Below, piece by piece: positions 17,370-36,004 of a DNA stretch of 64,000 nt. The notes under the pieces are model-generated. The model saw nothing but the letters and a program-made list of their open reading frames with translations, made no database searches and was not told the origin of the DNA. The translations under genes and the position numbers were made by a program. Source of the stretch: Draconibacterium mangrovi (lineage in GTDB: Bacteria > Bacteroidota > Bacteroidia > Bacteroidales > Prolixibacteraceae); the NCBI RefSeq assembly GCF_010586825.1, contig NZ_JAAAGB010000018.1:1-64000 (forward strand), read 5' to 3'. Numbering within the stretch: position 1 is the first letter of the stretch; every line of letters starts with the position of its first letter.

Positions 17370-18827
17370 ATGATGAACAAATTTGTGAAATATGCTGTAA
17401 TATTCGGTTGCTTATTCTTTGCATTTAAACCGGTAGTTTTTGCTTCCAACCAGGCAAAACAACGAATGATTGTATTAACAGATATAGAGGCTGATCCGGA
17501 TGATTCACAAACTTTAGTAAGATTATTACTTTATTCAAATCAAATTGAGCTGGAAGGTCTTATTGCAACTACCTCGATACATCAAAAAGAAAGAGTAGCC
17601 CCCGAAACAATTCATAAAATTCTTAATGCTTATGATAAAGTGCAGCCAAATCTCGAAAAACACGAACCTGGCTTCCCAACAGCAGAAAAACTGCACAGTT
17701 TGGTAAAACAGGGATTACCGGTTTTTGGAATGCAGGGAGTTGGTGAAGGAAAAGATTCGGAAGGATCGAACTGGATTATTAAAGTACTGGAACAAGATGA
17801 TGAAAGGCCTTTATGGATTTCGGTTTGGGGTGGCCCGAATACACTGGCGCAGGCATTATGGAAAATCAGGGAAACAAAAAGTAAAAAAGAAGCGGACCGC
17901 TTAATTAACAAACTCAGAGTTTACACTATATCCGACCAGGATGACACGGGTATTTGGATGAGAAATAATTTTTCTGATTTGTTTTATATCGTTAGTGTTG
18001 GAAGTTATATGACTGCCACCTGGAACGCAATAAACTCGGTGATAGAAGGAATTGATAACACTAAAATCAGTAACGACTGGATTGCCGAAAACATTCAGCA
18101 AGGTCATGGTCCGCTCGGCGCTGAATATCCTGATGTAGCTTATGGTATGGAAGGCGACACTCCTGCGTGGTTAAATCTAATCCTGAATGGACTGAGTAAT
18201 TCAGAACATCCTGAATGGGGAGGCTGGGGAGGCCGTTACGAATTATATCAGCCTGAACCGTTGGAAGGCCCGATCCCATCTGTTTTTCTGGGAGGTGCCG
18301 AATATCAGCCTGAAAATCGTCCAATCTGGACCGATGCAGATGATACATACACACCACGAATTCCGAATCAATTTGGTCGTGCAATTCGAAAAGACACACT
18401 AACGGTAACAAACAATAAAGTGAGTTTGTGGCGCTGGCGTGATGATTTTCAGAAAGACTTTGCTGCACGAATGGACTGGTGTACTGCATCATATAATGAG
18501 GCAAACCACCCCCCTGTACCGGCATTAGGTACTCCTGATGAGTTCACAATAAAATCAGGAGAGATATTTAGCCTGGATGCCAGTGGAACCATTGATCCCG
18601 ATGGAGATAATTTGAGTTACTGGTGGTTCCAGTATCCTGAAGCAGGATCTTATAAAAAAGCGATAAGTTTCGGATCTTTATCTGAAAACCTGTACAAGGT
18701 GCGTACTATTGTTGCTCCTGAAGTTGAAAAATCTGAAACAGCTCATTTTATTTTAAAAGTTACCGACAAGGGATCACCTTCTTTATCAAGATACAAGCGT
18801 GTGATTGTAACCATTATTCCTAATTAA
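17370..18827 (+). CDS. Sde182-type (DUF1593) nucleoside-hydrolase-like protein, copy 1
   Basis: 485 residues. A Sec signal peptide ends near VFA (residue 25). The nucleoside-hydrolase-like domain begins with VLTDIEADPDDSQT, where D38, E40, D42, D44 and D45 correspond to the Ca2+-binding DxDxGxDD loop of nucleoside hydrolases. Other family segments are LWISVWGGPNTLAQAL and GDTPAWLNLILNGL. The C-terminal Ig-like Sde0182_C domain starts near 390 (NHPPVPALGTPDEF, DPDGDNLSYWW) and ends RVIVTIIPN. Family members are annotated as cellulose-binding; their activity is not established to my knowledge. It is the most divergent of the five copies here and leads the hydrolase block, with GH3 starting 3 bp later. 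Confidence 0.85.
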   Translation: MMNKFVKYAVIFGCLFFAFKPVVFASNQAKQRMIVLTDIEADPDDSQTLVRLLLYSNQIELEGLIATTSIHQKERVAPETIHKILNAYDKVQPNLEKHEPGFPTAEKLHSLVKQGLPVFGMQGVGEGKDSEGSNWIIKVLEQDDERPLWISVWGGPNTLAQALWKIRETKSKKEADRLINKLRVYTISDQDDTGIWMRNNFSDLFYIVSVGSYMTATWNAINSVIEGIDNTKISNDWIAENIQQGHGPLGAEYPDVAYGMEGDTPAWLNLILNGLSNSEHPEWGGWGGRYELYQPEPLEGPIPSVFLGGAEYQPENRPIWTDADDTYTPRIPNQFGRAIRKDTLTVTNNKVSLWRWRDDFQKDFAARMDWCTASYNEANHPPVPALGTPDEFTIKSGEIFSLDASGTIDPDGDNLSYWWFQYPEAGSYKKAISFGSLSENLYKVRTIVAPEVEKSETAHFILKVTDKGSPSLSRYKRVIVTIIPN

Positions 18828-18830
18828 TCA

Positions 18831-34406: not shown

Positions 34407-34429
34407 AACTAAGCCAATAATTTAAAACT

Positions 34430-36004
34430 ATGAAGAATAAATTTCGTACATTTTGTACAATCGTTTTTGCATCGATTTTGATCGTTTTGAGTGGTCCGAA
34501 ATCATTTGCACAGAAAGAACTAGCTGTTAAAGTTGATAAAAGTAAGCAGGCAAGGATCCTTATTACCACCGACCTGGAGGCGGATGACATGAATGGCGTT
34601 CTTTTAAGCCTGATATACGCCGACCAGTATGACCTTGCCGGTATCGTTTGGACGGCAGGTATGTATCATTTCCAGGGTGATGCAGGCATGCATACGCTCG
34701 GCGAGATTACCCCTAATTTTAGGTGTAACGCCAGGCATTGCGAACATCGCGTGGAAACAGCAGCCGATCTTACTGAGTATCGTCCGGTAGACCCTACGTG
34801 GCTGGGCCGCATTTTGGATTATTACGAGGCCGATTATCAATTGATGAGCAAGAATAATCCTAATTATCCGACACCTGAATACATGAAGAGTATCACCAAG
34901 GTGGGTAATATCGAATTCGAAGGCGATTATCGCTTCGAAACCGAAGGCTCTAATTTTATTATGGACTGTATTATGGATGATGATATGCGTCCGTTGTACA
35001 TACAGCACTGGGGCGGAATCAACACTACGGTTCGTGCACTGTACTCGATCTATGAGAAGTATCACAGCACACCGGAGTGGGAGCAGGTTCTTGCAAAAGT
35101 TACCTCGAAAGTTCGTATCGGTGGTAGTGGCGAAGACAATTGCCGTGCCGACAGTAAAATTGACGAAATGTTCCCTGACTTACAGGATGGTGGCTATGGT
35201 GGAGGCTTCTTCAGTTACGGTTCTTTCTTTGCAGCGAGCTACAACTCTGAGAGACGTGCCGACGACGAACTTCAGCCCTATCTTCACGCTGACTTTATTT
35301 TGGAGGCCTATAAGGAGGGACACGGAAAACTTACTGAGGAGATTTGGCTGATGGGCGAAGGCCGTGCCATTTATGGTGAACCGATTATATTCAACTATGG
35401 CCTTATAACCTATATGGATTGGGAGAAATCAGGCGAACTCGGATGGGGGCCGGTTGGTACTGGATCTAAGCGTGCGGATTTCAAACCATTCGACTGGAGT
35501 ATCTGTCAATTCGGTTGCGCCTCTTTCATTAACATTGGATTGCGCCCGGATGTTGCCAATAGAAGTAATCGATTCTTCTTCGGACCGACTCCAGAAGGCG
35601 CAAAAAAAAGCAACCATTATACCATTGTAATGTGGGAAGAATTGGCAGCACGTGCCGATTGGGCGATCTGCGCACCTCAGGACTGTAACCATGCTCCGAT
35701 AGTTAAAGCCGACCAATTAGATTTCGTTGCCAAGCCGGGTCAGAAGGTTTCGCTTTCCGGTAACGCGAAAGATCCTGATGGAGACAAGTTAGTGGGAAAA
35801 TGGTGGGTTCCTGCTTTCTCATGCACCTACAAAGAAGGTAAAGCAGAAGGTCTGGCTGTTTCTTCTGAGACTGGCTGGAACACTGAATTTACCATCCCTG
35901 CCGACGCGAAAGTGGGCGACAAATTTATTGTTAATCTCGAAGTGAAAGATGACGCCACTCGTCCGATGACGCGTTTTGCTCAATATGTAATAACAGTATC
36001 GTAA
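34430..36004 (+). CDS. Sde182-type (DUF1593) nucleoside-hydrolase-like protein, copy 5
   Basis: 524 residues, nearly collinear with copy 2 (22545-24119). The signal region differs: copy 2 has FVSCGQKSFG, while here it reads [12 protein letters not shown], so the lipobox Cys is gone and a Sec site after FAQ is likely. Metal loop [13 protein letters not shown] (D48, E50, D52, D53); [37 protein letters not shown] and C-terminal Ig-like domain NHAPIV to FAQYVITVS match copy 2. The TAA stop shares a base with the ATG of the next gene, an esterase, so translation is coupled. Confidence 0.86.

Follow-up and report, generated by a model that had tools for sequence, protein, structure and literature searches.

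A locus of Draconibacterium mangrovi appears to consume plant apiose, and the first of its five DUF1593 proteins, together with the relatives of that protein borne in apiose operons, is on balance best read as an exported Ca2+-dependent apiofuranosidase, an activity that we infer from family and gene context. The locus lies in a 64,000-nt stretch of the 5.9-Mb genome (referred to as the window). A wider proposal, to which we give even chances, is that the nucleoside-hydrolase fold was recruited extracellularly to form a new family of Ca2+-dependent beta-D-apiofuranosidases, which would read the 2,3-cis-diol of the sugar, be spread across at least two phyla as linkage-specific sets of paralogues in apiose operons, and complement GH140. 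Published abstracts place apiose in rhamnogalacturonan II (RG-II), in the apiogalacturonan of duckweed and seagrass, and in over 1,200 metabolites of plants, apiin among them. The position of DUF1593 genes within apiose operons suggests one candidate substrate and one candidate mechanism.

The predicted operon of a kinase, an isomerase, a permease, and a split transketolase was found at positions 4382 to 10160. Ahead of it stands a DeoR-family regulator gene (3336 to 4103, plus strand; Pfam DeoRC, 3.4e-52), as do homologues in many relatives according to the labels of those genes. The operon encodes, on the plus strand, an FGGY kinase of the apulose-kinase type (4382 to 5875), a sugar isomerase of the L-fucose isomerase family that matches Fucose_iso_C and is presumed to be a D-apiose isomerase (5913 to 7328), a sugar permease with profile matches to RhaT and ureide permeases (7348 to 8364), and the AptA-like N-terminal (8390 to 9229) and AptB-like C-terminal (9219 to 10160) subunits of the split transketolase. 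With a stretch of E. coli SE15 as the reference for AplK, AptA, and AptB, the window genes were 37%, 45%, and 40% identical, respectively. According to a 2026 paper (PMC13001218), E. coli and E. fergusonii strains with a cluster that includes aplK, aptA, and aptB among other genes grow on D-apiose, and the cluster of Pectobacterium additionally has an isomerase gene, apsI. The same cluster was found on plasmids of Rahnella aquatilis and Sodalis praecaptivus, with 72 to 79% identity to the E. coli kinase and transketolase, and both plasmids add an isomerase that is 43 to 44% identical to that of the window. The window kinase carries the GDSH signature of AplK; a separate GlpK-type kinase of the genome has GDQQ. 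Among 50 aligned module kinases from apiose loci, the signature was GDSH in 46, GDSQ in 3, and ADSH in 1. Kinship, synteny with the growth-proven cluster, and the kinase signature bore out the original prediction of an apiose-type operon, and by kinship and synteny we take 4382 to 10160 to be a D-apiose operon.

The kinase gene passed the NCBIfam cutoff for GlpK (613 versus 590). Nevertheless, a glycerol kinase at 4382 to 5875 was rejected, because the GDQQ kinase is present elsewhere in the genome and GDQQ occurred in none of the 50 module kinases. With an apulose-type kinase scoring above the GlpK cutoff, automatic annotation may misname such kinases.

The plus strand continues downstream with an ECF sigma factor and FecR anti-sigma pair (10329 to 12038) and a SusC-like and SusD-like outer-membrane uptake pair (12203 to 17170). 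These are followed by DUF1593 protein 1, which has a nucleoside-hydrolase-like domain and a C-terminal domain (17370 to 18827), a GH3 gene and a GH79-like gene (18831 to 22476), protein 2 (22545 to 24119), a GH3 gene and two CE1-type esterases (24223 to 28994), protein 3 (29002 to 30615), protein 4 (30664 to 32244), two CE1-type esterases (32314 to 34394), protein 5 (34430 to 36004), and a CE1-type esterase (36004 to 36867). Pfam recovered the GH3, GH79-like, and CE1 enzymes that had been predicted for this block, the GH79-like gene just below the cutoff (22.5 versus 23.1 bits). The four other DUF1593 proteins of the window are paralogues of protein 1, and the genome has a sixth on a different contig (C21:462725). 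Proteins 3 and 4 are 44% identical to each other. The identities between proteins 2 and 5 (82%) and between the esterases at 27822 and 33195 (68%) suggest recent duplication inside the block from 27822 to 36004. The Pfam scan also covered the rest of the window, including the genes at 39496 to 47401. At the window edge adjoining the apiose region, an integrase core domain (rve, 1e-23) at 2 to 454 is an insertion element or its remnant. A 191-residue ORF at 42042 to 42617, which covers only positions 2 to 139 of the 743 positions in the GH106 rhamnosidase profile, is a truncated gene or fragment.

All five predicted DUF1593 genes were confirmed by matches to both PF07632 and PF21027. The E values for PF07632, the Sde182 nucleoside-hydrolase-like domain, were 1.3e-111, 2.4e-31, 3.9e-50, 1.5e-58, and 8.9e-29 for proteins 1 to 5, respectively, and the scores ranged from 101 to 373 bits against a Pfam cutoff of 26.8 bits; the alignments of proteins 2 and 5 were confined to the first two thirds of the profile. 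The family had been described as annotated only as cellulose-binding. This description was incorrect, because Pfam already names the domain nucleoside-hydrolase-like and a relative has been solved (2yhg). None of the five proteins matched PF13204, the GH140 apiosidase family, at an E value of 0.001. By eye, the N-termini of the DUF1593 proteins resemble export signals, and proteins 2 to 4 have a Cys in a lipobox-like place; the proteins are predicted to be exported.

The acidic loop, proposed to match the calcium site of nucleoside hydrolases, was present in all five proteins (TDIEADPDD, TDLEVDD, CDPELDD, CDPELDD, and TDLEADD in proteins 1 to 5, respectively). Across an alignment of 91 different DUF1593 sequences, the Asp residues at the three loop positions were conserved in 90, 90, and 89 sequences, one miss being a sequence cut short at its start. 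A downstream Asp in an EGD motif was kept in 85 of the 91, including proteins 1, 3, and 4, but was not found in proteins 2 and 5 by sequence alignment. The likeness to the calcium site therefore held for the loop, which is only part of the site, and fell short in proteins 2 and 5. By alignment, proteins 1, 3, and 4 keep the full set of calcium Asp residues; the structure models contain no metal. In proteins 2 and 5, calcium-dependent activity may have been lost. Structure comparison supported the predicted nucleoside-hydrolase fold for protein 1, whose N-terminal domain as modeled shares the fold of solved nucleoside hydrolases (9 to 15% identity among the matches listed); matches to this domain filled the list for protein 1. 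The model of protein 2 was of moderate confidence.

We propose that the locus would import and consume apiose from plant material, with the exported DUF1593 protein 1 and its operon-embedded relatives freeing the apiofuranosyl unit. In the pathway reportedly described by Carter and colleagues in 2018, D-apiose is converted to D-apulose, then to phosphorylated apulose, and then to central metabolites; in the window, these steps would be carried out by the isomerase acting on free D-apiose, the kinase, and the split transketolase, respectively. In the hydrolysis itself, Ca2+ would be held by the Asp residues of the loop together with the EGD Asp further downstream; the metal would chelate the furanose through O2 and O3, and a water activated by an Asp would attack C1, as in nucleoside hydrolases. 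We infer that the bound sugar is apiose, that calcium chelates its diol, and that the glycoside is hydrolyzed. Apiose has a ribose-like 2,3-cis-diol, alone among common plant furanosides; arabinofuranose and galactofuranose are trans at these positions. Apiofuranose is without a 5'-hydroxyl side chain at C4. Against the proposal, no leaving-group acid was identified for the hydrolase, nucleoside hydrolases are stated to rely on the 5'-hydroxyl side chain (PMC12648331), and the solved relative Sde_0182 (2yhg) is reported to be inactive on nucleosides (PMC8910321).

The original prediction expected DUF1593 and the apiose genes to co-occur across genomes, and this was observed in 395 sampled Bacteroidota genomes. 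A close isomerase was found in 19 genomes, DUF1593 in 33, and both in 8 (Fisher p 4e-5), so that DUF1593 occurred in 8 of 19 isomerase genomes versus 33 of 395 overall. However, DUF1593 also tracks PF13204, which was present in 19 of the 33 DUF1593 genomes versus 51 of 395 overall (p 1e-10) and in 6 of the 19 isomerase genomes (p 0.025). Because a plant-polysaccharide lifestyle confounds it, genome co-occurrence was rejected as proof and kept as weak support. Against the apiofuranosidase reading, DUF1593 and the isomerase were side by side in only two of the eight genomes with both (the window genome and G158); in G352, DUF1593 adjoins the kinase and transketolase genes and the isomerase is elsewhere in the genome.

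Because of this confounding, adjacency was used instead, with two control sugar isomerases, in 120 genomes of the window's family. DUF1593 was present at an E value of 0.001 in 62 of them, and 23 had an apiose-type isomerase (60% identity or more), three of these being partial. The search listed 146 DUF1593 places, with the weakest matches left off; by these places, 19 of the 23 isomerase genomes have DUF1593, or 20 when G508, with a weak match only, is counted. A listed DUF1593 gene lay within 15 kb of 15 of the 23 apiose isomerase genes, whereas none lay near the 96 L-arabinose isomerase places (56 in genomes with listed DUF1593) or the 105 L-rhamnose isomerase places (49 in such genomes), although family genomes are not independent and Fisher values ignore kinship. 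Distant paralogues of the isomerase (35 to 38%) also had no DUF1593 nearby (0 of 5). This confirmed adjacency in the family. Counting against the apiofuranosidase reading, 113 of the 146 listed DUF1593 places had no apiose isomerase within 15 kb. In G464, the DeoR gene is separated from the kinase by a DUF1593 gene 79% identical to protein 1, and a further DUF1593 gene stands after the ABC genes, with an apiosidase-family gene behind it. In G435, DUF1593 lies between the two transketolase genes. The PL10, GH88, BT_1020-like, and acetylesterase-family genes of some apiose loci (listed below) would point to pectin as the polymer, as either RG-II or apiogalacturonan.

In addition, a genome collection was scanned with an isomerase alignment, and 80 of the 583 loci found were kept, with flanks of at most 10 kb and often less. 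DUF1593 was found in the flanks of nine loci (L067, L068, L069, L072, L076, L078, L088, L091, and L143), which belong to Prolixibacteraceae, other Bacteroidota, Adhaeribacter, and one KSB1 MAG; among loci with both flanks full, the count was 7 of 32. In the other 71 of the 80 loci, DUF1593 was not found in the flanks examined, many of them short, which counts against the apiofuranosidase reading. The DUF1593 gene of L078 is partial, on the opposite strand, and at a contig edge. A tenth locus, L111 (39 bits), was dropped, as Pfam assigned Ig-like domains without PF07632. In L143 (Adhaeribacter), the isomerase, transketolase N and C, DUF1593, sugar ABC transporter, and kinase genes lie on one strand, and the first ATG of the DUF1593 frame follows the transketolase stop codon by 21 bases. 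In L091 (the KSB1 MAG), DUF1593 genes flank the operon on both sides; one of them is fused to a GDSL esterase (L091:359-3673), and this fusion has a weak match to a type IX secretion tail. Two apiose operons also have, close to DUF1593, an ORF of some 450 residues for which Pfam gave no match (L067:18906-20258 and L076:18161-19510); these are possibly further uncharacterized enzymes. With nearby defined as within 10 or 15 kb, depending on the survey, the distinct isomerase loci with DUF1593 nearby number 20, including the window (9 plus 15, minus 5 shared, plus G158). The 88 ORFs neighboring DUF1593 in 18 other regions included no family that recurred in more than two of the regions.

A tree of 65 rows placed seven DUF1593 sequences, all from apiose loci, in one clade (99/94); its G158 member came from the family search and did not depend on the isomerase scan. 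The five window proteins fall outside this clade, which counts against the apiofuranosidase reading, and the equation of one DUF1593 clade with apiose was rejected, the apiose label needing 13 changes on the tree. Protein 1 belongs to a clade of 15 rows, 13 of which are not from apiose loci, and its closest relatives are neighbors of apiose operons in G464 and G397 (64%). For the window block only, the chances seem evenly split that proteins 2 to 5 serve a different glycan and came near the apiose operon by local rearrangement. Relatives of protein 4 (83%) and of proteins 2 and 5 (82 to 83%) lie side by side in two congeners, G471 and G493, in neither of which an apiose isomerase was found; one congener has a sigma/FecR/SusCD set with them and G493 has two sulfatase genes. 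The window block, moreover, has GH3 and CE1 genes and no Pfam match to PL10 or GH88. Local rearrangement is opposed by the continuous run of the block on one strand after the apiose operon and by the apiose-operon relative of protein 1. The furanosidase role originally proposed for all five proteins was not upheld, since proteins 2 and 5 are without part of the calcium site and kin of proteins 4 and 2/5 occur in congeners where no apiose isomerase was found. For protein 1 the case for apiose is good; proteins 3 and 4 may or may not act on this sugar, and the case for proteins 2 and 5 is weak. In G493 (L268:8904-15565), the two sulfatase genes that follow the relatives of proteins 4 and 5 hint at a different glycan for this pair.

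A local profile located PF13204 genes close to the isomerase in 6 of the 80 loci (L070, L082, L108, L125, L135, and weakly L123), and Pfam did so in L072. A first count of nine loci with DUF1593 and six with GH140, without overlap, had presented the two as strict alternatives; this was rejected because both are side by side in L072 and G464 and both occur in G481 (local profile). Such neighbors, adjoining some DUF1593 genes, would suit DUF1593 proteins of apiose loci that are non-catalytic apiofuranose-binding modules, capturing glycans for enzymes such as GH140. Passages of a 2022 review (PMC8910321) describe Sde_0182 as having a nucleoside-hydrolase fold with a preserved Ca2+ ion, as inactive on nucleosides, and as possibly a furanose-interacting module, and the fold of XopQ is likewise described as binding a ribosyl unit without nucleosidase activity. 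Nevertheless, we consider a binding role unlikely: the proteins are mostly separate, exported (by eye) proteins rather than modules of glycosidases, a single locus can hold as many as five diverse paralogues (L257), and an apiosidase-family gene was found in only 3 of the 20 distinct loci (L072, G464, and G481), of which part of the ORFs were scanned.

Slightly less likely still is that DUF1593 proteins of apiose loci hydrolyze a different linkage of the same polymer, such as one in a pectin side chain, with apiose as a mere neighbor. Several DUF1593 subfamilies coexist in one locus, and PL10, GH88, BT_1020-like, and acetylesterase-family proteins are encoded in the apiose stretch of G481, as are PL10 in L088 and GH88 in L068. 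However, DUF1593 genes accompany the catabolic module for apiose and not the isomerases for arabinose or rhamnose, two sugars that are abundant in pectin. In addition, to our knowledge, a calcium site for a cis-diol fits few other plant furanosides. Finally, it is very improbable that the operon is for a different sugar: both the isomerase family and the kinase family are broad, and NCBIfam calls the kinase a glycerol kinase, but the kinase signature, the synteny with the growth-proven cluster, and PF13204 near isomerases (6 of 80 loci by local profile, one weak, and L072 by Pfam) argue against it.

Searches of the literature, spelling variants included, found no paper that mentions DUF1593 by name and no function for it, and no link between the fold and apiose was found in the titles or abstract starts of the papers listed, subscription papers and preprints excepted. 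The furanose idea is already in print; the link of DUF1593 to apiose operons was not found in the literature searched. If the apiofuranosidase reading is true, an intracellular nucleoside-hydrolase design would have been reused for O-glycosides in plant cell-wall breakdown, and protein 1 with its operon-borne kin would represent a possible new family of glycosidases built on a known fold.

Compared with the known D-apiose transketolase pathway, the window shares the kinase, both transketolase subunits, and an isomerase akin to those of Rahnella and Sodalis, but it has a RhaT-like permease instead of an ABC transporter, and a SusCD locus comes after the operon. Like DUF1593, the GH140 apiosidase occurs near the same apiose operons and adjoins DUF1593 in some; its Pfam family is unrelated, and the copy of the window genome is on another contig (C2:72717). 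Nucleoside hydrolases (IU-NH and RihA/YbeK), which are intracellular N-ribohydrolases, have the loop DxDxxxDD, whereas DUF1593 proteins have DxExxxDD or DxExDD and an extra C-terminal domain. Sde_0182 of Saccharophagus degradans (PDB 2yhg) carries carbohydrate-binding modules, unlike the window proteins, and passages of the 2008 genome paper (PMC2386152) list it among the proteins detected in supernatants of cultures, classed by its carbohydrate-binding module alone. The XopQ/HopQ effectors, according to passages of the 2022 review (PMC8910321), likewise reuse the nucleoside-hydrolase fold without nucleosidase activity; these are plant-pathogen effectors, with a gene context unlike that of DUF1593.
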